DNA of 40,188 bases from a bacterium (GCA_030647955.1 JAUSIQ010000023.1:1-40188); one strand, 5' to 3'. Shown: positions 9,760-29,612, counted from the stretch's first letter. The notes: generated by a model from the letters alone, not told the origin. Numbers and translations are program-made.

Positions 9760-11643
9760 TTAATACATGAGTTCGACCTTTACGTCTTTGCGATTTTTGG
9801 GCACTACTTTTACCCAGAACGGCGAGAGGATTACTTTAGCTGATTCGATTTCCCTTATGCTTAAAAGATAATCTTTGATATTCCCTTGCTTCATACCCAG
9901 CATACTGCCCACGATCTTTTCTTCATCTATCTTGGCGGCTGCTTCGCCCTGAATGGCCACGTTGAAAGTTAGCAGGTTATGGGCAAAATCTGTTTTAACG
10001 TTTTTATACTCCAAACGCAGAGAGTTTTGCAAAAGAATCATTTCTTGGTCTTTGCTGACATAAGCCCGGATCAGTTCAAGGATATCTTCTTCGGAAAAAC
10101 CAACAGTTTTCGCTTCGGCGATTGCTTTGACGGCAAATCCATCGACAGCCTGTTCCGCTTCCGCGGTCGCTTGCAGGGAGGTGATCTTGTTATCCAGTGG
10201 GTCGATAATCTTTAAGTTGTTAGCTTTGGATTTTAGTTTACTGGCCGAACCTTCCAGGGCTTTTTTGGTAACTTCTTCTTTGGCTACAGCAAAATCATTC
10301 TCGGTAACTATTTTAGATAATCCTACTACTCCACCGGAAAAGGCTTTTGCGGATTCAGCATAGAAGCCATCGTATTTCGGAGAACCCTTTAAGCCGGGTA
10401 CGGTAAATCTTCCGGGAGCGATATTGTATTCCGGACCAGCTTTGTCGGCTAAAACTTCTACCGTAGCTGATCCAGGAATGAGTTTGCCTCCGACGGTTTT
10501 AGCCCCGGGAATAGTGACGGGACGAGGAATGCGGAAAATTAAACCAGTTGATGATTCAAAGCGAGTAGTAGCGATGAAAGTCTGCTGCTCGGTATTGTAG
10601 TTATTATAAACTGTAATTTCTCCGCGGGATTTTTGGGCGACTTCTTTTTGTCCGGTAGAAGAGAAATCCTGTGTGACTTCTTCTTTGTAAGTTAAGAGTT
10701 GTCCGGGAATGCGATTGGTTTTTGGATCTATTTCAGAATAGTCACTGGAAGTAGAAATTTTCAGCTCAAAGTCTAGAGTTTGTTTCTGAGGCTTTAAAAC
10801 TACTTGAGCGTTACCGAGGAAAAAATAAAACACTGCGCCCAGAACAATAACCGCCCCACCCAAAAACAGCAGATTAGCTTTGGGAGAAGTTTTTGGTCGA
10901 CGAAATATTTTTTTGTTACTCCATATCCCCGTGGAAGAACTTTCTTGAGCTTGCTCCTTCTCTCCCTTGAACCACATGTTTTCTAAATTCTCTAATTTTT
11001 TAGCACTAGCCTTTTCGGCGGATTTACTCTTTTTGGCGGGGGTGTGGCCGGCCTTAAATTTGGCCATTGCCAAACTGGCTACCCCTGTAGCATGCGCTCC
11101 GTCGTCTTCAAAATCTTCCTCAATGGTTTCTTCTTCCTCTGTGTCCTCGACTTCTTTATCATCTTCAACGATCATTCCTTCTGGAACCGTCTCTTCTTCT
11201 ATTACATCATCCTTCTCAACCTCCTCTACATCTTCAGTCTTTTCTTCCTCAATAACATCTTCTGCTTTTTCGTCCACCATGTCTGTTTCTAGCTCTTCAA
11301 CTTCTAGATCTTCGTCGCTCGGTTCTTCTATTTTCTTCGGTTTCTCTTCTTCTGCCTCCATTTCTTCGTCATCTGAACCACGTCCGGGTGAAGCTAGAAA
11401 TTTAAAACCATATTTTTGAGAGTAGCCCCGGACTTTGTTATCAGCCGTCATAACGGTGATAGTTTTGCCGCTACTTTCAGCTTCAGTGGATAGAGAAACA
11501 AAATGGGCCTCACTCTTGGCGATGTGACTGTTTTTAGGAAATATTAAAATAACCTCTTCGGCGTTTGCTTTTTTAAATTCTTCAAAAACTTCCTCGAAGT
11601 GATCGCCCTTGAGGATGTTTATAATCTTTATACCACTTGCCAT
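9760..11643 (-). CDS. Single-pass membrane protein with acidic linker and large extracellular part (baseplate-J-like in CPR)
   Basis: 627 aa. Residues 1-85 form a small alpha/beta domain (VILIFPKNSHIAKSEAHFVS, TITVMTADNKVRGYSQKYGF). Residues about 90-183 are mostly Glu/Asp. A basic stretch leads to one transmembrane helix at 257-276. The outer ~350 residues include YKEEVTQDFSSTGQKEVAQK, GEITVYNNYNTEQQTFIATT and GKLIPGSATVEVLADKAG. From memory this layout resembles CPR proteins labelled baseplate J/gp47-like, but there is no sign of a phage tail nearby. A -10 box lies 6 bases before the ATG, so it may be leaderless. Function unknown. Confidence 0.75.
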   Translation of the reverse strand: MASGIKIINILKGDHFEEVFEEFKKANAEEVILIFPKNSHIAKSEAHFVSLSTEAESSGKTITVMTADNKVRGYSQKYGFKFLASPGRGSDDEEMEAEEEKPKKIEEPSDEDLEVEELETDMVDEKAEDVIEEEKTEDVEEVEKDDVIEEETVPEGMIVEDDKEVEDTEEEETIEEDFEDDGAHATGVASLAMAKFKAGHTPAKKSKSAEKASAKKLENLENMWFKGEKEQAQESSSTGIWSNKKIFRRPKTSPKANLLFLGGAVIVLGAVFYFFLGNAQVVLKPQKQTLDFELKISTSSDYSEIDPKTNRIPGQLLTYKEEVTQDFSSTGQKEVAQKSRGEITVYNNYNTEQQTFIATTRFESSTGLIFRIPRPVTIPGAKTVGGKLIPGSATVEVLADKAGPEYNIAPGRFTVPGLKGSPKYDGFYAESAKAFSGGVVGLSKIVTENDFAVAKEEVTKKALEGSASKLKSKANNLKIIDPLDNKITSLQATAEAEQAVDGFAVKAIAEAKTVGFSEEDILELIRAYVSKDQEMILLQNSLRLEYKNVKTDFAHNLLTFNVAIQGEAAAKIDEEKIVGSMLGMKQGNIKDYLLSIREIESAKVILSPFWVKVVPKNRKDVKVELMY

Positions 11644-19736: not shown

Positions 19737-19819
19737 TGGGCAAATTCATCTTTATTTTTTTCTTACATTGATTTAATGCGGGAAAATTATGAAAACGCTT
19801 CACGATGTTCATTTTTTTA

Positions 19820-19847
19820 TTGACTCTGCTCCCCTCTCCACTATAAT
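19820..19847 (+). promoter_or_regulatory. Promoter of the GH6 gene, leaderless
   Basis: TTGACT (19820-19825), 16-base spacer, TATAAT (19842-19847); the ATG at 19855 starts 7 bases later. Confidence 0.8.
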
Positions 19848-19854
19848 TAACCTC

Positions 19855-21369
19855 ATGAAAAAATCATTAACTAAGAAATGGCTGATGTCTTCATTTTTTG
19901 CGCTCATCATTTATTTCTTCTTTTTCTCCCATGCGCAGCTTACTTCAGCTAGTGAAAAAACTATCGATGTTTGGTGGCCTACACCAAATGCTCAATTGGT
20001 CGGACTCCAGCCCTTTAAGGCGTTACTTCGTGATAGCGCTCTTTCTGATTACCAGATTTTCTGGCAAGTAGACGGTGGGGCTTGGAATTATATGGGTGAT
20101 AATCAACAGGATTACCCGCATAAAGAATATGCGGTAGATTTGAGTGGCTGGAAATGGAAGGGTCAAGGTCCTTATCAATTGAACTTCATTGCTCTGGATA
20201 GATTTGGCAACAAAGTGGAAAAATCTTTTCCGATCTTTATTGCTGGCTCGGTTACGCCAACTCCAACACCTATTGCAACCCCGACGCCCACTCCTTCTTT
20301 AGCTCCGTGTGCACCAGCGGCTATTACTCCCACTCCTACGCCCGCCCCGATTTTGGCTTGTCCGGCAATGGTCATTCTTACCCCTACGCCTAGTCCGAGT
20401 GTGAGTGCTACACCTTCTCCAAGTCCAACGCAAACTCCAACTCCGACTCCGTCGTCTACCCCCACTCCTTCTCCTACACCCACGCCTACTCCCGTGGCGG
20501 TGATTCAGACTGTAAATGATAGTAAGCTCTATGTAGAAGATAACGCCATTGCTAAAAACTGGAGTAATAATCAGCAACCGGAAGAAAAGAGTCTAATGGA
20601 AAAGATGGTGAACCAGCCCACAGCCAAGTGGCTTGGTAATTGGAACTCCGACGTCCAAAGAGATGTTAGTGCGGTAATGAGCGCGGCTAGCGCACAAGGT
20701 ACAACACCCACTTTTGTGGTCTACAATATTCCGCATCGTGACTGCGGTGGTTATTCCGCCGGAGGAACGGGCAGTGCTGATGCCTATCGCAACTGGATTG
20801 GCGCGGTAGCTCGCGGAATCGGCAATCGCTCGGCTATCGTGGTTTTAGAGCCGGATGCCTTGGCGGGAATAGACTGTTTGTCTGATAGTCTTAAAACCGA
20901 AAGAACTAATCTTTTGCGCGAAGCGATTGGAACACTGAATCAAAACGGTGCGAGTGTTTATCTGGATGCTGGTAACCCCCGCTGGATCGGAGCTTCGGAA
21001 ATGGCTAATCGCTTAAAGAAAGCCGGAGTTGATCAAGCTAAAGGCTTCTCTCTTAACGTCTCCAACTACTTCACTACCGATGACAACCTTAATTATGGTC
21101 AACAAGTTTCTTCGCAAGTAGGCGGAAAACACTTCGTAGTGGATACAAGTCGAAACGGTAACGGTCCGACTGGCGATGCTCAATGGTGTAATCCTTGGGG
21201 TCGCGCTCTTGGAAAAGTCCCGACTCTAAACACGGGCAACTCTTTGGTGGATGCTTATCTATGGATTAAAAATCCCACCGAATCCGATGGTTATTGTAAT
21301 GGTGGGCCATCGGCCGGAACTTTCTGGCCGGAGTATGCCATTGGTCTTGCACGCAACGCTGGCTGGTAA
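19855..21369 (+). CDS. Secreted GH6 cellulase (endoglucanase/cellobiohydrolase family) with accessory module
   Basis: 504 aa from the leaderless ATG at 19855 (an upstream ATG at 19789 precedes the promoter). Signal peptide or anchor at 9-30; an accessory beta module at about 36-131 ([20 protein letters not shown]); a Pro/Thr/Ser linker at 132-215; a GH6 catalytic domain at 216-504. GH6 marks: [12 protein letters not shown] with Asp296, [11 protein letters not shown] with catalytic acid Asp334, [10 protein letters not shown] with Asp430, [10 protein letters not shown], and [12 protein letters not shown]. Cys297/341 and 445/481 can form the usual disulfides. It hydrolyses beta-1,4-glucan by inversion outside the cell. 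It faces the glucan synthase operon. Confidence 0.95.
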
Positions 21370-21404
21370 TCTTTACTTTCCAGCGATCGCTGGAAAGTAA
21401 AGAT
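21369..21404. repeat. Perfect 36-base palindrome centred on GCGATCGC
   Basis: Arms ATCTTTACTTTCCAGCGA and its exact complement. It starts at the last base of the GH6 stop codon. Its right-hand 22 bases recur exactly inside the GT4 gene at 2093-2114. It may also help termination. Confidence 0.9.
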
Positions 21405-21417
21405 AGGGTAGTTCAAT

Positions 21418-21444
21418 AAAACCCTCGCACATGCGAGAGTTTTA
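21418..21444. terminator. Bidirectional terminator between GH6 and the GH113-like gene
   Basis: AAAAC-CCTCGCA-CA-TGCGAGAG-TTTTAT, with T runs in both directions. Confidence 0.85.
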
Positions 21445-21446
21445 TA

Positions 21447-22814
21447 TTACCTGTTCACAAAAATATCGATGGAGCGCTGGGCAAGGGTATTGTGGTCGAA
21501 ATCTTGAACTACAAAGTTAATGTGATACGGTCCACTCCCTTTCCAATTCCAGTCGATAAAGTCCACCGCCACTTCTTTATGGGGATAGTCAACGTAGTTA
21601 TTGAACATGGGATTAAGACGATCGCCATCAACCTGCCAAAACATTTCATACTGCTCGACAGCATTATTTTTAAACATTGCTTTGAAGGGCTGTATTCCGG
21701 AAACGGAAACGCCATTAGTTGGCCACCAAATATCGATCTCTCCGATGGTTGGAGATGGGGTGGGGGTGAGTGTCGGGGTAGCTCCCCCGCCGGTAAACCA
21801 TTTGGTCATCGTGGCTTGAGCGGGTTTGTTTTGGGGAGTGTAATCTACGTTACCTTCTCCTCCGGAGTTAGGGTCAATGTTCCATTCCCAAATATGCCAA
21901 CCTTGCAGGTAGGAGTAGTTGTTCCAATATTGAAATAGCGCCTCATAGGCATTAACTTGCTCTTGGGCGTTGTAGCCATTGTTTGACCCGCTATTCCATG
22001 GCTCGTAATGCGCTCCGTGCATACTACGATAGCCGAGCTCTGTAAAGAGAATCGGTTTATTATATTTATCGTGCAACGGTTTGATCTGGGTGTTGTTCCA
22101 ATAGTCCCAGGCTCCTTTTATACCCTCCACGGATCCGTCTGAGTTCAGATTATAGTAGGCAGAGATTCCGATGTAGTCTAGATGTGGCCAAAAACCAATG
22201 CGGTTAGTCTCGTCCCAGCTTCCCGAAGGACCCCAGTTGGCGCTGTAGGTTAGTTTGCCGTTATAAATTCCGCGAATAGTGGCGATTAGGTTGATCCAGT
22301 CTTGGTTATACTTGGTAGTCATGGTCTGTAATTCTGTTCCCATCATCATTTGCTCAGCGCCGGTGCTTTGAGCAATGCGTGCATAACGGGAAAGCATATT
22401 TCCATAATTGGTAAACCAAGCATCTTTATTATTAGCGTTAATGTAGGCTCGCCACTCTCCAGTATGAGATTCCAAATGCGGCGTAATCATCACCTTTAAT
22501 CCTTTGCTGTGAGCATAGTTAATGGCGGAAGTTAAGGCGGCGTCGGTAGGAGTGCGATAACCGGTTTGGACGTCATCCGCATAAAGATTGGATTGGTAAA
22601 TCGGAACGACTAGGCTCACGAAATTTGCCCCCGTACTGGCCAGCTGATCAATACTAGCCCGGTAACTCTCCGTATCAAAATCATCTGGTGAAAAAGATCT
22701 AATATTAACGCTCTTTTGCCAATCTCCTACCGTCGCCGAGGTAGATCGGGTAGCAAAAATGCCAAGAGATAGACTCAATAAGAGGGCGAGAACGATAATT
22801 TTTTTGATCTCCAT
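21447..22814 (-). CDS. Secreted clan GH-A hydrolase (GH113-like, mannanase/glucanase type) with accessory module
   Basis: 455 aa. Signal peptide at 1-27; TIM barrel at about 30-340; short Thr/Pro linker at 345-357; and a C-terminal module at 359-455 homologous to the GH6 N-terminal module (IDIWWPTNGVSVSGIQPFKA). Barrel marks: GLKVMITPHLESHTGEW, MMMGTELQTM with proposed acid/base Glu161, DYIGISAYYNL, ILFTELGYRS with proposed nucleophile Glu259, and GWHIWEWNIDP. This fits clan GH-A, closest by eye to GH113 beta-mannanases. Substrate is open: mannan or beta-glucan. Last gene of the glucan operon, 79 bases after the PMT gene. Confidence 0.82.
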   Translation of the reverse strand: MEIKKIIVLALLLSLSLGIFATRSTSATVGDWQKSVNIRSFSPDDFDTESYRASIDQLASTGANFVSLVVPIYQSNLYADDVQTGYRTPTDAALTSAINYAHSKGLKVMITPHLESHTGEWRAYINANNKDAWFTNYGNMLSRYARIAQSTGAEQMMMGTELQTMTTKYNQDWINLIATIRGIYNGKLTYSANWGPSGSWDETNRIGFWPHLDYIGISAYYNLNSDGSVEGIKGAWDYWNNTQIKPLHDKYNKPILFTELGYRSMHGAHYEPWNSGSNNGYNAQEQVNAYEALFQYWNNYSYLQGWHIWEWNIDPNSGGEGNVDYTPQNKPAQATMTKWFTGGGATPTLTPTPSPTIGEIDIWWPTNGVSVSGIQPFKAMFKNNAVEQYEMFWQVDGDRLNPMFNNYVDYPHKEVAVDFIDWNWKGSGPYHINFVVQDFDHNTLAQRSIDIFVNR

Positions 22815-22893
22815 AGGTTTATGATTAATAAAATGATGATCTTTGCTTAACCCTGTAGCTTAGAAGTTAGTCGTGTAATTTTTATGAATGTTT

Positions 22894-24411
22894 TTAATGA
22901 CTGGATGAAACTTTCGAGGCCTGCTGTTCGTCAAAGTCGTAGCGTAATTTATAGGTGTATAGATTCAAGCCGTCCGAAAAATTCCTTTCCTCTATTTGCT
23001 CAAAGTGGGTATCAAAATACAACTTAATGTCTTGCTCATATCCTTGGTTGTAACTCAAGACCACCCAGGCCCGCAGATGATTAGACTGAAGGTTCGTAAC
23101 TTCTTGGACCAACTTGTCTTCGGAAAATGCCGGGATCGCTCCTTGGGCAAAGCGATTCCAGCTTGGAATAGTAGAGAGCGGAGCGGGGCCGTGATAGTAA
23201 TATTCAATTGGATAAATGGTGAAGGGCGCGGAGATTACGATGACGTCCTGAGAGGTAGCGTTTTTTTCTAAATACTGACTAACCTCTCGGAAATTTTCTT
23301 TAACGGGAGTCTGACTGCTAAACATTTGGTGACCAAAAGTTAATAACATGGCCGCGACGACGACACCTTTGATAGCTCGAGATAAGCTGGGATGGTAGGT
23401 GGAGAAAATCCAGCTCAAGAAAAGATAGAGCGACGGAACGCTTAAGATTAGATACCGCGTCAGGTAAAGCGGACGAACGGTAATGCTAAAGAGAAAAGAT
23501 CCCATGATGGGAATTAAAATAGTCAGGACAAGAAAAGAAGTTTCCGGAGTAATGCGATTATTGCGGCTTAAGCTCAAAAAGGCCAATAAGGCGGTGAGCG
23601 GCCACAAAGAAACAATCAGGGTATTAAGATGATCGTTTTGAAAACCAAAAATAAATTGCGAGAAGGTCTCAAAGAGATTAATGGTAGTGGGGGCAGTAAG
23701 TAAAGGAGTGCTGTAATTTAATTCCCCCACTTGTAAAACATACCAGCCCCAGCCGAGCATCAAAAAGAAAAGTAAAAACCAGGTGGCTATAAATTTTTTG
23801 TGCAATTTCTTTTGGATAAAATGGTGACGGTGCAGTAAGGCGAAGATGACTTGAGCTAATAACCCAAAGGCAAAAAAGTAATGAGTGAAAGAACCGATAA
23901 TACAGGTCAAAACGTATCCCGTCCAAAGTTTAGCAGTAGAGTTTTGATCCTTAAAGAGGCGTAAGAAAAAATACTGGTTTAAAACCGTTAGTAAGGTAAG
24001 GAGGCTATACATACGAATCTCGTTGGCGTACCAATTCAGGAAAGGAGAAATGGCTATCAAGATAGCGGCAAAACGAGCGACGGCAGAGCTATAAGCCAAA
24101 CGGCCGAGAGCATAAACGGCCGGAATAGTGGCCACAAAAAAGATTAAGGAGAGTAGTCGGGCAGTACCGACCCCACTCCCCCAAAAGAGCTGCCAGAAAT
24201 GCAGGAGGAAATGGTAAACCGGGACGTGTACATCCCCCGCTACCAAATGCAAAATTCGAGAAAGGCTATGACTGGTTTGCCAAAGACTCTGGGCTTCGTC
24301 GAGGCGCAAACTTTGTTTAGATAATACAAAGTAGGAAAAAATAATTACTCCGAGCATGAGTATCCCCAAAAGTGTGGCGGTATTTATTTTTCGGTAGGTG
24401 GCGATTCTCAT
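22894..24411 (-). CDS. PMT/ArnT-type membrane glycosyltransferase (GT-C fold)
   Basis: 505 aa, about ten to eleven helices. The first outer loop carries the acidic motif SLRLDEAQSLWQ (Asp-Glu), as in dolichyl-phosphate-mannose and ArnT-like enzymes, followed by LVAGDVHVPVYHFLLHFWQL and ISPFLNWYANEIRMYSLLTL, typical of PMT_2 proteins. Such enzymes use polyprenyl-phosphate sugars on the outer face to modify proteins, lipids or polysaccharides. It lies 9 bases after the BcsA-like gene, so it may glycosylate the Ser/Thr-rich linkers of the secreted proteins nearby or decorate the polymer; both are inference. Confidence 0.88.
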   Translation of the reverse strand: MRIATYRKINTATLLGILMLGVIIFSYFVLSKQSLRLDEAQSLWQTSHSLSRILHLVAGDVHVPVYHFLLHFWQLFWGSGVGTARLLSLIFFVATIPAVYALGRLAYSSAVARFAAILIAISPFLNWYANEIRMYSLLTLLTVLNQYFFLRLFKDQNSTAKLWTGYVLTCIIGSFTHYFFAFGLLAQVIFALLHRHHFIQKKLHKKFIATWFLLFFLMLGWGWYVLQVGELNYSTPLLTAPTTINLFETFSQFIFGFQNDHLNTLIVSLWPLTALLAFLSLSRNNRITPETSFLVLTILIPIMGSFLFSITVRPLYLTRYLILSVPSLYLFLSWIFSTYHPSLSRAIKGVVVAAMLLTFGHQMFSSQTPVKENFREVSQYLEKNATSQDVIVISAPFTIYPIEYYYHGPAPLSTIPSWNRFAQGAIPAFSEDKLVQEVTNLQSNHLRAWVVLSYNQGYEQDIKLYFDTHFEQIEERNFSDGLNLYTYKLRYDFDEQQASKVSSSH

Positions 24412-24420
24412 GAGAGTAGA

Positions 24421-25965
24421 TTAATTTTTTTTGATGGTTTGAAAGAGAGCTTTGTTTTCGGCCAGTGCGGCTGCTCTTCGTTCGGCCCAGCGCGTTTGCG
24501 GAGCAGCGGCGACGATGAACGGAATAAAGACGGAAACATTAAAGAGGGCCCAGGAGACGTTAGTCATCACCGAAGCCGTGAGGCCCTCACGCCAAATCGC
24601 CAAACCTATCCCCAAAACAACGGCGCCGATGTAGATAAGGTGAGGAATAACCAGGTTCATGAAATTTCCGGTTTGCTGCTTTTTAGGGGTTACCGCAAAG
24701 CTGACCTTTTGGTTTCTTAAGATGGAGTAGAGGGCTTTGAGATGGATAGTAAATCCGGCCATGGCGAAAGAAACCGCGCGGTAAGTGAAGGAAAAATTAC
24801 TGGAGCGGCGCAATACGGCCACGGTCAGAAAAATATGGGGCAGGAAGGCGGCGGCCAAAGCCATGGTCGGGGCATTGAATGGCGTTAATCCTGTGAAAAA
24901 GAAAATCAAAGGCAAGATCGCATTCATTAAAATCACCGGACCAGACAGGAAGAAACTCGATGAGGCCAAATACTGAATTTTCTGGGCCCAGGTTAATCCC
25001 TTCTTAAATAGTGGATTAAATTTGAAAATTAATTCCAAGCTACCGCGAGCCCAGCGATACTGTTGTTTGTAGTAGGAGAGAAAATCTTCCGGAGCTAAAC
25101 CTTCAGCTAATACTTCGGAAACATAATAAGACTTCCAGCCTTTTTCGTGGATCATTTGAGAGGTCAGAAAATCCTCGGTGATGTTGGTCTCGCACATTCC
25201 CCCTACTTCTTCCAAGGCTCGGCGACGAATAGCCATGTTTGTGCCGCACAAAAATGCAGAGTTAAGACGGTTTTTTCCTTTACAAATTGGGCCAAAGAAT
25301 AATTCCTGCTGTTCCCAGGCTCCGGCGGTGATATTGTTCAGGCCTTGGTTTTTATAAAACTGCGGGGATTGTACAAAACCCATCTGAGGATCCACAAAAT
25401 AGCCCATGGTTTTTTGTAAAAAATCACGGTGCGGGACGTGATCGGCATCGAAGACGACAATGAAAGGGCTGTGGGTGAGGTGCAGGGCATTGTTAATATT
25501 ACCGGCCTTGGCTCCTCCGGGAATGGTGCGGGTAATACAGTGTACTCCGAGGCGCTGAGCCAATCTCTCAATCTCTCTCCAATTATCCTTCTTGGCTACA
25601 AAGCCGTCGTTAAGAATGTAGACGTTGAATTTGGGATAGCGCATGTCTTTGGCCGCGAAGACGGTCTGCTCTACGATATCCTCCGGTTCACCGGCTACGG
25701 TAATAAAAACATCTACCGATGGACGGAAAGAAGAGTCGGAGCGGGCGGCGTATCTCGTTTCCCAGATAGTATATCCGTAAGTGAGGAGCTGCCAGAGATG
25801 GAAAATTTCTCCGGCGATAACCATCCAAAAAAGGTAGACGTTATTACGCGGAAACCAAAAAGTGATTACTAAGAAATAAACTATGGCCATGGCCATGTTG
25901 GTGAAGATCAACGTCTTGCTCGTTTTGGTCTTTAAAAAATCTTTTTTTATGTGTGCTTGTTTCAT
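24421..25965 (-). CDS. Cellulose-synthase-like membrane GT2 (BcsA-type, no PilZ)
   Basis: 514 aa. Two N-terminal helices, a GT-A domain at about 80-310 and four or more C-terminal helices. Full processive GT2 signature: VYILNDGF with Asp120, DAD at 173-175 (VVFDADHVPH), FLCGTNMAIRRRALEEVGG, TED at 263-265 and QQYRW at 301-305. It should polymerise UDP-glucose (or a like sugar) and extrude the chain. The PilZ domain that binds cyclic-di-GMP in BcsA is missing, so control must differ. Neighbours GH8 and GH6 make beta-1,4-glucan the best guess. Confidence 0.93.
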   Translation of the reverse strand: MKQAHIKKDFLKTKTSKTLIFTNMAMAIVYFLVITFWFPRNNVYLFWMVIAGEIFHLWQLLTYGYTIWETRYAARSDSSFRPSVDVFITVAGEPEDIVEQTVFAAKDMRYPKFNVYILNDGFVAKKDNWREIERLAQRLGVHCITRTIPGGAKAGNINNALHLTHSPFIVVFDADHVPHRDFLQKTMGYFVDPQMGFVQSPQFYKNQGLNNITAGAWEQQELFFGPICKGKNRLNSAFLCGTNMAIRRRALEEVGGMCETNITEDFLTSQMIHEKGWKSYYVSEVLAEGLAPEDFLSYYKQQYRWARGSLELIFKFNPLFKKGLTWAQKIQYLASSSFFLSGPVILMNAILPLIFFFTGLTPFNAPTMALAAAFLPHIFLTVAVLRRSSNFSFTYRAVSFAMAGFTIHLKALYSILRNQKVSFAVTPKKQQTGNFMNLVIPHLIYIGAVVLGIGLAIWREGLTASVMTNVSWALFNVSVFIPFIVAAAPQTRWAERRAAALAENKALFQTIKKN

Positions 25966-25975
25966 GGGTGTAAAA

Positions 25976-27172
25976 TTAAATTGTTTCCACTAAGTTTGGT
26001 AACAGATTGTTATAAAGGGCTAATCCAAACCAAGTCCAGTTATCATCGTAATAGCTCATCGGATTTTTCCAGGAATCCGTGTCGGGGTTATACAGGGCAG
26101 CTAGTTTATTTTCATAAATATTCTTAGCGGTTTCGGAATCAGCCACTAAAAAATACCCGATGCTTCCACCATAGACGGCCGGTGATTCGAAGTCCGAGAT
26201 AACCTGACCATTGTGGGCATAACCGGCATGGATAAGTTTCTTTTCATCCCATTGGGTCTGCAAAAATTCCAACCGATAAAGATTATCCAAGGCGCGCGGT
26301 TCTTTGAACCAGTACCAATCTAAAGCTAAGCGCCAAGGTAGACGAATGGCATCGAAGCTGTAATTACTAGTGAGGTTTGAAAAATTAGGCGCTTTGATTT
26401 GAGCGGTGCTTCTGTCCATTAAAATCCAATCTGGAGGAAGGTTAATGCTGCGCTCTTTATCGAGCGGAGATTCAATGCTCTTCTGAATAACTTCGTAGGA
26501 GGTATCGATCAGTTTGGTCCAATCATGACCGGAATCGATTTGAGCAAAAAGCCGATAGGCAGAGGGAGATAAATAGGAGGGGTTGATGATAACCGCCTCC
26601 GGGGAGCGTTCTTTTTCTAAATTATTGGCCGCGAGATACGGCTTATTGGCAATGACGACCACTTCCATCTCCCAGATGTCGTTAATGATCGCTTGAGCGG
26701 AGTCTAAATAATCGCGCTCCCCCCAGCGCACATTGGCAAACAGAAGCGCCATGGCAATGTCGGTATCGGCATCACTGGCGGAGTTGTCTCCCCCGGCTTC
26801 ACTCAATACTCCATAACTGCCGTTAGGACGCTGGCCGTACATCCAGGAAAATAAATTACTGTCGATGCGCTTCAAGTTGGCATTGGTCCATCCCCAGACC
26901 TGATCAAAGGTTTCTCGATCTCCCACCCAAACTGCGCGCAGCATACTATAGCTTTGTCCTTCAGAGGTGGTGATATTATTACGCTGTTTGTCGACAGTGC
27001 GACCCTCGGCGATGTATTCTTTTTTATAGGAATCCCAAATGCCATCCAGCATTGAACGTGGAGAAAAGACGATCGCTTGTTGACGCTTGGCGCTGTTGTA
27101 ATAGATCACCGTTACAATCAAAGCGACAGCGGCAATAATAAATATTCCTCCCAGGAGTTTCGAAATTCTCAT
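25976..27172 (-). CDS. GH8 endoglucanase (BcsZ-like), membrane-anchored
   Basis: 398 aa. An N-terminal helix at 7-25 without a clear cleavage site suggests an anchored outer-face enzyme. GH8 marks: ITTSEGQSYSMLRAVWVGDR with proposed acid Glu71, FSWMYGQRPNGSY, and SASDADTDIAMALLFA with the Asp134/136 region. The later SFDAIRLPWRLALDWYW is also typical. GH8 enzymes invert beta-1,4-glucan bonds, and BcsZ-type members are part of cellulose synthase operons, where they trim the polymer. It lies 10 bases before the synthase gene. Confidence 0.93.
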   Translation of the reverse strand: MRISKLLGGIFIIAAVALIVTVIYYNSAKRQQAIVFSPRSMLDGIWDSYKKEYIAEGRTVDKQRNNITTSEGQSYSMLRAVWVGDRETFDQVWGWTNANLKRIDSNLFSWMYGQRPNGSYGVLSEAGGDNSASDADTDIAMALLFANVRWGERDYLDSAQAIINDIWEMEVVVIANKPYLAANNLEKERSPEAVIINPSYLSPSAYRLFAQIDSGHDWTKLIDTSYEVIQKSIESPLDKERSINLPPDWILMDRSTAQIKAPNFSNLTSNYSFDAIRLPWRLALDWYWFKEPRALDNLYRLEFLQTQWDEKKLIHAGYAHNGQVISDFESPAVYGGSIGYFLVADSETAKNIYENKLAALYNPDTDSWKNPMSYYDDNWTWFGLALYNNLLPNLVETI

Positions 27173-27183
27173 AAGCCAAAAGT

Positions 27184-27720
27184 TTAATTCTCTCTTACTG
27201 ACAAGCGACTAGAAGCTGTGCTTAGAAAAACTCCATAAAGCGCCAGTGCCGCGCTTAACCAGTAGAGAGTTCTAGTGGTGGCCGGACTAAAAGTATTCCG
27301 GAAGGAATAGGCGGAGGATGGCTCAGGATCTCCAGAAATTTTAAAAGCCGGCTTAGAGTTAACGCTCCCGGTAGAGTTTGTACCTGCTTCTGGTATGGAA
27401 AAGAAGTCTAAAATAGAAGGGAGACTCAAGGCTACATCGTCACCGGGTGGAAGATTGTCTTGGTCTGAGATAGTTCCGGGAATAGGGCTAGGAGAGGGGG
27501 AGGGAGTTGGTGTTAGGGTGGGGGTCGGAGTGACTAAAAAACCTGCATCTAGATCAGCAGGCTCTGTAATGATGTTCTGGTCCTCATTGCTCTCTTCTAC
27601 GGCCAAAACGGAGAGTCCGAGAGAGGAAGCCTGGGTATTTTGACTATTCCAAAGCAAAATACCGGCCAAGAGGGCCAGGGCCAAAATTGCTAGTAATTTC
27701 TTGTATGCAATGAAAATCAT
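27184..27720 (-). CDS. Pro/Thr-linker membrane protein, first gene of the glucan operon
   Basis: 178 aa. Signal/anchor helix at 9-24 (LLAILALALLAGILLW), a Thr/Pro/Ser linker at about 65-85 ([19 protein letters not shown]), a low-complexity outer part, and a C-terminal helix (LYWLSAALALYGVFLSTA) before a short basic tail. It may be a surface-tethered scaffold or partner of the synthase. The same linker type is used in the GH6 and GH113-like enzymes. It starts the operon 11 bases before the GH8 gene. No domain recognised. Confidence 0.7.
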   Translation of the reverse strand: MIFIAYKKLLAILALALLAGILLWNSQNTQASSLGLSVLAVEESNEDQNIITEPADLDAGFLVTPTPTLTPTPSPSPSPIPGTISDQDNLPPGDDVALSLPSILDFFSIPEAGTNSTGSVNSKPAFKISGDPEPSSAYSFRNTFSPATTRTLYWLSAALALYGVFLSTASSRLSVREN

Positions 27721-27844: not shown

Positions 27845-28963
27845 CTAAATTAACTTGGTTTTGAAGCGGGAATCGATATAAGCCGTAGCTTCGGAGAACT
27901 TTAGAGAAGTGGTGCCGTTACCGGTACGAATGTAAAACTCCTCATTATCATCCGTACGCAAATAGGCCGGTTTGGGCGAGGGGGCGACGTTTAAAATACA
28001 GCATTCTTTGTCGTTTATCTTCCCCCAATGTACTCGTACAAATTGCCGGAATTCGGCGCCGATCATTTTGCGAAAAACGTGTGAAAAGTGATTCTCAAAA
28101 CCATCGGAGTTCTCCTTTCCCAGGGTAGAAAAGTCTTCTCCTAGTCCAATAACCGACTTATTATCATCCACTCCTAAAACGAGGTGGCCGCCACGAGAAT
28201 TTAAAAAAGCGGCTACGGTTTTCATGACGGATTTTTCTAATTGTCGATTAACTTTTTTACCGCGCAAATCCCATCGAAACGAACTCTTAAATTCCAAAGT
28301 TTCACCCTCCCCTACTTCTAATAAAGCATGGAGATCGGGTTGGTAGTTGGTAAATTCCACAGGCGGCAAGAGCGGTTCCCCTTTTTGTTTTACGCTGACA
28401 ATTAATTCCACGTGATGCTGAGGATCAGGAATGTGCGGAAAAGAAATGATTTTATGACCTTGGTTATCTTTTAGCTCTAAAGTGCCATAACGCACCAATT
28501 TCCCCAACGGTCCTTGGTGATAAGCCACGGAGGCCACTTGGGAGAGTGGCACAATCTCGCGGCGACGGTAAAGAATACCCCACGCATGGACGATTTGATC
28601 GGCTTTTATCTCGTAGTATTCCCGGTGCCAGCGGAAAAATATGTAAAAAACTAAGATAACTTCCACACCGAGAAGAAAAAGAGCCTGGGCAATTTGATAA
28701 GAGATGGCTTGCGAGAAGCCCAAGGAGCGATAAATCTGAGCGTAGTGTGTAATAGACCCAGCCACAAAATAAGCGACGATCGCCGCCGCCTGCAAAATAA
28801 GAAAGTTCTTGACGATGATGATCGGGTTGGGTTTGATGCGCGTAATTTGGGGATGTCCGGAGGCCTTATCGGCCTTAATCATGCTTAGTAAATCAGCGAT
28901 AACCGTTTTATCCCAACCCCGTTGTTTTAGATATTTGACGATAGTGGATTCCGTCTTTTTCAT
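27845..28963 (-). CDS. Membrane protein with bacterial PH domain fused to AlbA_2/Schlafen domain
   Basis: 372 aa from the ATG at 28963 (AGAAGG just upstream; an in-frame start at 29005 is possible). A charged N-terminal region is followed by two transmembrane helices at about 50-110, then a bPH_2-like domain (YYEIKADQIVHAWGILYRRR, VPLSQVASVAYHQGPLGKL). The C-terminal ~150 residues are an AlbA_2 domain: EGETLEFKSSFRWDLRG, VAAFLNSRGGHLVLGVDDNK and FYIRTGNGTTSL. AlbA_2 domains occur in transcription regulators and Schlafen-type nucleases, so a membrane-tethered regulator or defence protein is possible. Confidence 0.83.
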   Translation of the reverse strand: MKKTESTIVKYLKQRGWDKTVIADLLSMIKADKASGHPQITRIKPNPIIIVKNFLILQAAAIVAYFVAGSITHYAQIYRSLGFSQAISYQIAQALFLLGVEVILVFYIFFRWHREYYEIKADQIVHAWGILYRRREIVPLSQVASVAYHQGPLGKLVRYGTLELKDNQGHKIISFPHIPDPQHHVELIVSVKQKGEPLLPPVEFTNYQPDLHALLEVGEGETLEFKSSFRWDLRGKKVNRQLEKSVMKTVAAFLNSRGGHLVLGVDDNKSVIGLGEDFSTLGKENSDGFENHFSHVFRKMIGAEFRQFVRVHWGKINDKECCILNVAPSPKPAYLRTDDNEEFYIRTGNGTTSLKFSEATAYIDSRFKTKLI

Positions 28964-29093
28964 CCTTCTATTATCCCCTCTTTTTATATCAAAAACAACC
29001 GGCAAAAAATGCTGATTTTCATGACAAAAAAACTACTCGCATTCAAAAGTCACCCCAATTGTTTATTTTTAGATTTCTTTCTTATGTCTTTTG

Positions 29094-29168
29094 GGTGCCC
29101 AGCCGGGCTCGAACCGGCAACCCTCAGGTCCACAACCTGATGCTCTAACCAATTGAGCTATGGGCACC
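29094..29168 (-). tRNA. tRNA-His (GTG)
   Basis: Begins GGTGCCCATAGCTCAATTGG and ends with C73 after GGGCAC, so the extra G-1:C73 pair typical of tRNA-His is encoded. Anticodon loop TTGTGGA. CCA is not encoded (CAA follows). The 5' 24 bases are also the 3' end of the LAGLIDADG gene. Confidence 0.95.
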
Positions 29169-29612
29169 ATTTTTTAATATTAATCTGCGGGCGTATCCAA
29201 AATCTATCCCTAATTTTTTCCCTATAGTTCTATACGTCATACCGCCAGCCCGTAATTTATTCGCCAGGATCATTCTTCTTTCTTGGATGTTTCTTCTTTT
29301 CGCTATCCTTCTAACAGTAGACGTTACTTTAGGCTTGGTCGCCAAAGCAAGCCTCTTTTTAACAACGAGAAAGCCTAGTGTATTTTTAAGAAACGTAAGC
29401 ACATCTTCTTGCTTAGCAACGTAGTACACCCAACTATCTTTCCAATGGGCTTGACGCTTCCTAACTTTAAACACATTACCAATTTTGGAAAATTTTTTAA
29501 TGTCGATTAAAACTTCCAAATTCGCTTGAGCTATCGTTATACGGAATCCTTTACCATTGTGAACTATGGATCCCTCACCGTCAAAAAAACCTGCTATATA
29601 TTGCCATGTCAT
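29145..29612 (-). CDS. LAGLIDADG homing endonuclease, stand-alone, overlapping tRNA-His
   Basis: 155 aa. One LAGLIDADG-type motif (YIAGFFDGEGSI at 5-16) followed by the usual alpha-beta pattern (GFRITIAQANLEVLIDIKKF, WVYYVAKQEDVLTFL), so it would act as a homodimer. The C-terminal ~50 residues look like a helix-turn-helix (LRAGGMTYRTIGKKLGIDFG). Its last codons (GAHSSIG-stop) lie inside tRNA-His. No intron or intein is seen, so it is a free-standing element. Target unknown; the tRNA junction is the obvious suspect. Confidence 0.9.
   Translation of the reverse strand: MTWQYIAGFFDGEGSIVHNGKGFRITIAQANLEVLIDIKKFSKIGNVFKVRKRQAHWKDSWVYYVAKQEDVLTFLKNTLGFLVVKKRLALATKPKVTSTVRRIAKRRNIQERRMILANKLRAGGMTYRTIGKKLGIDFGYARRLILKNGAHSSIG

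Follow-up and report, generated by a model that had tools for sequence, protein, structure and literature searches.

A gene cassette conserved among Patescibacteria that probably makes and shapes a cellulose-like glucan

Introduction

Patescibacteria are tiny bacteria with reduced genomes, probably dependent on a host and presumably attached to other cells during life; their coat and anchor are mostly unknown. A locus at positions 19855-27720 of contig JAUSIQ010000023.1 (GCA_030647955.1) raises the question which polymer such a cell could make and process with a single cellulose-synthase-type glycosyltransferase (GT2) encoded among three different glycoside hydrolases (GH8, GH6 and GH113). The stretch analyzed here, referred to as the window, is the whole contig of 40,188 bp from an assembly of 943 kb that is 97.8% complete. 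A preliminary description of the window had proposed a reduced cellulose-like exopolymer system in a probable Patescibacterium. We find that the synthase is constantly accompanied by a GH8 gene and a GT-C glycosyltransferase gene in other Patescibacteria, while a sister group of synthases pairs with a hydrolase for a different linkage. Based on these observations, the locus probably amounts to a complete, compact set of genes for the synthesis and processing of a β-1,4-glucan (cellulose-like) surface polymer.

Results

The locus encodes a processive GT2 of the cellulose-synthase type

Searches against Pfam, NCBIfam and PDB sequences identified six genes. Five of them form an operon on the minus strand, in the 5′ to 3′ order small Pro/Thr-linker protein, GH8, GT2, PMT_2-type GT-C protein and GH113, with gaps of 11, 10, 9 and 79 bp, and the GH6 gene on the plus strand converges on this operon. 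Gene content, spacing and orientation are thus as preliminarily described, and the Patescibacterial origin is supported by kinship, since the genome belongs to the same order as G043 (‘Candidatus Parcubacteria’, JAIFWG010000005.1).

The GT2 (24421-25965, minus strand) scores 309 bits against the cellulose synthase model TIGR03030, which is below its curated cut-off of 699 bits, compared with 70 bits for PgaC and 35 bits for NodC; on these scores, a poly-GlcNAc, chitin or hyaluronan synthase was ruled out. Its best PDB matches are BcsA proteins (4hg6, E 7e-65), and a PilZ domain was not found in the protein by Pfam. The motifs expected of a processive enzyme were confirmed: NDG with D120, DAD, TED and QQYRW. 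In addition, we identified a gating-loop motif FAVTPK, which the preliminary description does not mention. Among 46/46 relatives there is no variation in DxD, ED and QQxRW, in three residues of FxVTxK (F, T and K) or at the channel Trp that corresponds to W558 of RsBcsA. FxVTxK is shared by BcsA, CrdS and BgsA (PMC6821405), and it therefore marks a β-glucan synthase rather than a particular linkage.

GH8 and a PMT gene accompany the synthase throughout Patescibacteria

The preliminary description had suggested looking for the same gene set in other genomes of the Candidate Phyla Radiation. Scanning about 85,000 species genomes for the synthase yielded 44 Patescibacteria loci (46-63% identity) plus one distant Acidobacterial match. 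Both the GH8 gene, which adjoins the synthase, and the PMT gene, which adjoins the cassette, are present in 42/42 loci with enough flanking contig; in three loci the order is GH8-PMT-GT2. One apparent exception, L034, was an artefact of how open reading frames were picked, and tblastn detects all four genes there. A convergent GH6 gene follows the cassette in 18 of the 44 loci, and GH113 adjoins it in a few relatives only. The cassette is uniform across many Patescibacterial lineages, yet rare and patchy, being found in 6/384 sampled genomes of the class and 14/380 of the phylum, the window’s own genome counted. No account of such a cassette was found in the literature searched, and it has apparently not been reported previously.

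A sister group of synthases pairs with a β-1,3-glucanase

A further group of Patescibacterial GT2 proteins, at 33-38% identity, emerged from the same scans. Ten of its 12 loci (L062-L066, L109, L111-L114) carry a GH81 endo-β-1,3-glucanase, and none carries GH8 or PMT. The GH81-linked loci often encode an HlyD-like protein and some a GT-C-like membrane protein of ~690 amino acids; in their synthases the gating loop is degenerate (WxAT) and FCVGT replaces FMCGT. The two loci lacking GH81 branch outside the GH81 clade. L110 and L115 represent yet another GT2 lineage of Patescibacteria, the third, which branches more deeply and has neither GH8 nor GH81 nearby.

The two types of synthase thus differ completely in their hydrolase partners (Fisher’s exact test, 3e-12 for GH8 and 3e-9 for GH81, with loci counted as independent although they are kin by descent). 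Because GH8 and GH81 cut different bonds, the simplest reading is that synthases of the window type make a 1,4-linked and those of the other type a 1,3-linked glucan. This linkage-matched pairing, a matter of genomic context, is the best evidence that the window’s synthase makes β-1,4-glucan. The GH81-linked cassette is a candidate curdlan-like system.

The synthase belongs to a lineage separate from BcsA

In a phylogenetic tree, both Patescibacterial GT2 groups lie on one side, with BcsA and the rhizobial synthases of the BgsA type placed elsewhere. Forcing the window’s group together with BcsA alone was rejected by the approximately unbiased (AU) test (p 1.4e-6), as was forcing it together with the BgsA-type synthases alone (p 3.3e-5); the references of this tree are plasmid records and two PDB fragments, without Streptomyces CslA and clostridial CcsA.

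Whole-genome searches point in the same direction. PilZ and BcsB, both missing from the locus as first described, were found nowhere in the 943-kb genome, while positive controls were detected. No candidate for BcsC appeared among the scanned window proteins, the genome not having been searched for it. Together with the AU test, the absence of PilZ and BcsB rules out a plain reduced Bcs operon. Judged by sequence, the synthase represents a variant Patescibacterial lineage separate from BcsA. Membership in the BgsA/CrdS group was likewise ruled out by the AU test, and an HlyD match is lacking beside the GT2. The genome encodes one GGDEF protein, so that cyclic di-GMP may be made but not read via PilZ.

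Three hydrolases with intact catalytic residues

The GH8 protein (25976-27172, minus strand) matches PF01270 (E 2.8e-46) and the structures of CelA and BcsZ; its score against the BcsZ model PRK11097 is 139 bits, under the equivalog cut-off of 299. The catalytic positions Glu71, Asp136 and Asp274 are conserved, including the acid Glu and the base Asp, and an N-terminal transmembrane segment suggests a membrane-anchored endoglucanase. In the cassettes of Yonathbacteria, a second GH8 protein with an immunoglobulin (Ig)-like domain is encoded 3′ of PMT (L040:11407-12948, L045:7121-8758), the place that GH113 holds in the window.

The GH6 endoglucanase is encoded by an open reading frame (19789-21369, plus strand) that opens at 19789; the start at 19855 is likelier because a signal-peptide-like segment directly follows it. 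The protein matches PF01341 (E 4.8e-64) and Mycobacterium tuberculosis Cel6 (1up0, E 2e-78), contains the catalytic Asp residues and has an N-terminal Ig-like domain and a Pro/Thr linker. Within 19820-19855 of the window, a σ70-like site (11/12) ends 8 bases before the likely start codon; a promoter in this position would mean a leaderless mRNA. Among the 384 class genomes, GH6 is enriched in those with the cassette (4/6 versus 4/378, p 1e-6).

The GH113-family hydrolase (21447-22814, minus strand) matches PF22612 (E 7.2e-54); its two catalytic Glu residues are present in the match to mannanase structures (E 2.5e-28) and conserved in 8/8. All three hydrolases exceed the Pfam cut-off of their families, and their catalytic residues are present in the window and kept among relatives. 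GH6 and GH113 both have signal-type N-termini, in agreement with secretion. The intergenic region between these two convergent genes (21370-21446) contains a perfect palindrome of considerable length together with a hairpin that resembles a terminator (21424-21437).

GH6 and GH113 share an Ig-like module

A domain of ~94 residues, absent from the preliminary description, is common to the N-terminus of GH6 (19963-20241, plus strand) and the C-terminus of GH113 (21453-21737, minus strand) at 49% identity. AlphaFold2 predicts an Ig-like sandwich (predicted local distance difference test, pLDDT, 97.6), and ranking by TM-score puts a Thermotoga petrophila mannanase nearest to it (0.77). The window copy has no Pfam match and could not be assigned to a known module, while other members weakly match PKD or Ig families. 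Since its fold is Ig-like, we do not claim it as a new carbohydrate-binding module; a role in binding the polymer nevertheless seems plausible.

The domain recurs, at times doubled, in GH6, GH113 and extra GH8 proteins of relatives. It was found in 5/384 class genomes. Four of these have the cassette (p 8e-8), and the remaining one, whose assembly is fragmented, belongs to a genus that has it. Where copies distant from the cassette were examined, they were part of GH113 proteins, apart from one more GH6 copy in G356. Some GH6 proteins seemed to contain additional GH113 matches, which proved to be cross-matches via the shared domain.

The third cassette gene encodes an ArnT-like GT-C protein

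The GT-C protein (22894-24411, minus strand) matches PF13231 (E 3.6e-8). Sequence searches against the PDB gave only repeat-driven matches, and its identity came from the fold: the predicted structure (pLDDT 91) best matches ArnT (5ezm, Foldseek E 3e-9, 13% identity), and Pmt4 structures are also among the matches. Its first external loop contains an invariant acidic motif, L37 D38 E39. In NCBIfam the protein matches a mycobacterial mannosyltransferase only, with 31 bits, which falls far short of the cut-off. ArnT takes its sugar from a polyprenyl-phosphate donor and transfers it to a lipid acceptor. Roughly half of the relatives encode a polyprenyl-phosphate-sugar synthase of the DPM/GtrA type no more than 6 kb from the cassette, often directly upstream, and DPM-like genes are found elsewhere in the window’s genome; the nearby synthases agree with an ArnT-type use of polyprenyl-phosphate sugars. 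The target of the GT-C protein would be either the glucan or Pro/Thr-rich proteins.

The first gene of the operon (27184-27720, minus strand) encodes a small secreted or membrane protein without a Pfam match, consisting of an N-terminal hydrophobic segment, a Pro/Thr linker and a C-terminal juxtamembrane motif. In several other lineages, positional homologues with weak sequence similarity lie directly upstream of GH8, and the juxtamembrane motif is conserved. One guess is that this protein acts as a membrane anchor in a role like that of BcsB.

Other features of the contig

Just upstream of the cassette, the window encodes a protein combining a bacterial PH domain with a Schlafen/AlbA_2 domain (27845-29005), a relative of which lies near the cassette in L008. 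Further along, a LAGLIDADG-type open reading frame (29145-29612) is located between tRNA-His (29093-29167), which it overlaps by 23 bp, and tRNA-Arg. At 9760-11643, a protein of 627 amino acids without a Pfam match at 1e-5 is encoded.

Discussion

Comparison with known systems

The closest analogue is the cslA-glxA locus of Streptomyces with cslZ (PMC9040799, PMC11022532). It makes a cellulose-like glycan, and CslZ, a GH6 protein encoded on the opposite strand, helps its deposition (PMC9040799); as in the window, a GT2 operon is immediately followed by an opposite-strand GH6 gene. In contrast, no Pfam match to a GlxA copper oxidase or a lytic polysaccharide monooxygenase was obtained among the scanned window proteins, the search for GlxA not extending to the genome, and GH8, GT-C, GH113 and the Ig-like module are additional here. 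Bcs operons (BcsA/BcsB/BcsZ) resemble the locus in a GT2 with DxD, ED, QxxRW and FxVTxK and in the adjoining GH8, but the window’s synthase lacks PilZ, its genome lacks BcsB, it forms a separate clade, and the GT-C gene, always present in the cassette, is missing from Bcs operons. Clostridial ccsZABHI (PMC7710045) shares a cellulose-type GT2, an endoglucanase of its own and a membrane-bound extracellular partner in place of BcsB, whereas CcsA has PilZ, the hydrolase is a GH5 and acetyltransferases are present, in contrast to GH8 and a GT-C glycosyltransferase in the window. The bgsBA genes of Sinorhizobium meliloti and CrdS-type synthases have a BcsA-related GT2 without PilZ, as here, but also an HlyD partner and a rhizobial phylogeny, and the grouping was rejected; the GH81-linked sister group comes nearer to their layout than the window’s cassette does. 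With ArnT/PMT enzymes, the third cassette gene has the predicted fold and the acidic DE motif in common, despite the low identity in structural alignment. By the features tested, the cassette does not belong to the cslA-glxA, Bcs or Ccs systems.

A model for the polymer and its processing

The gene identities, motifs, conservation, linkage-matched pairing and folds were obtained by computation, and from them we infer the identity of the polymer and the direction of its processing. In our model, the GT2 would polymerize UDP-glucose and export the growing chain by way of a membrane channel of its own, and the membrane-anchored GH8 would cut or free it outside the cell. The ArnT-like GT-C protein, supplied by a polyprenyl-phosphate-sugar synthase, would attach single sugars either to the glucan or to those secreted proteins of the locus that are rich in Pro and Thr. 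Once secreted, GH6 and GH113 would remodel the polymer, on which their common Ig-like module would keep them. The system would run without PilZ-based sensing of cyclic di-GMP and without BcsB.

Several observations weigh against a β-1,4-glucan. The first Asp pair of the GT2 is N-D instead of D-D (N replaces D179), fixed or nearly so, and the cellulose-stacking channel aromatic (F426 of RsBcsA) is D or N in most relatives. Because the synthase falls outside the BcsA group, its specificity is not inherited by phylogeny, and given a reference sampling without CslA and CcsA, a closer relative may exist. GH113 is a mannanase family, so mannose could be part of the polymer. Four genomes of the class have GH6 genes (L148-L152) but no cassette. 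Finally, GalU-like sequence was limited to two incomplete matches, located at or close to the ends of contigs C34 and C18, which would fit, without proving, a single gene split by the assembly.

Mannose leads to a different view of the product, a glucomannan or a β-1,4-glucan to which the GT-C protein adds mannose from a polyprenyl-phosphate-mannose donor, cut by GH113, GH8 and GH6. The solved GH113 relatives are mannanases, the one NCBIfam match of the PMT protein is a mannosyltransferase, DPM/GtrA-type synthases lie next to many cassettes, and GH113 proteins with the Ig-like module also occur elsewhere in cassette-bearing genomes. However, a match to a family does not define which sugar is used, and GH113 is seldom found next to the cassette, so we regard a heteropolymer of this kind as unlikely. 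For the GT-C gene alone, and compatible with glucan synthesis, O-glycosylation of the Pro/Thr linkers of the small protein, GH6 and GH113, comparable to actinobacterial O-mannosylation, would leave the glucan unmodified. Such linkers in three products of the locus and the Pmt4 matches make this a possibility of some weight, if a minority one; on the other hand, the best fold match, ArnT, modifies a lipid, and in WWE3 cassettes the GT-C gene is kept while the position upstream of GH8 showed no small protein of this kind.

GH6 and GH113 could also be secreted weapons or foraging enzymes directed at glucans and mannans of a host or the environment, independent of the synthase. Their signal-type N-termini and the GH6 genes in cassette-free genomes would suit such a role, which we nevertheless consider improbable, as GH6 recurrently converges on the cassette and the Ig-like module tracks it. 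Of the two functions first proposed for these enzymes, trimming the polymer is favoured and an attack on other glucans is less likely, since the Ig-like domain is nearly confined to cassette genomes. A mixed-linkage or β-1,3-glucan, as made by BgsA or CrdS, is very improbable: FxVTxK occurs in those synthases as well and the sister group pairs with a β-1,3-glucanase, but the BgsA-type grouping was rejected (p 3e-5), no HlyD partner adjoins the GT2, and the hydrolases of the locus come from β-1,4 families.

The cellulose-like system thus stands as the preferred reading, in keeping with the synthase motifs, the conserved association of GH8, GT2 and GT-C and the link to GH6, while the notion of a reduced Bcs operon does not quite fit, given the separate lineage, the constant GT-C gene and the uniformity of the set over many lineages of Patescibacteria. 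What had been a guess from a single locus has become a conserved, linkage-matched cassette, and this core interpretation is well supported. More tentatively, and with the odds against it, the Patescibacteria may have a β-glucan synthase family of their own without BcsB and PilZ, comprising a β-1,4 branch (GH8, GH6) and a β-1,3 branch (GH81). The β-1,4 branch would be obligately coupled to an ArnT-like enzyme placing lipid-carrier sugars on the growing glucan, which would result in an undescribed substituted cellulose.

For the biology of these organisms, the cassette provides a concrete candidate for a Patescibacterial coat or attachment polymer, one that lends itself to staining and to tests with enzymes. 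The paired β-1,4 and β-1,3 branches represent a natural experiment on how a GT2 chooses its linkage, and the constant presence of a GT-C gene hints at a novel route for modifying such a polymer.

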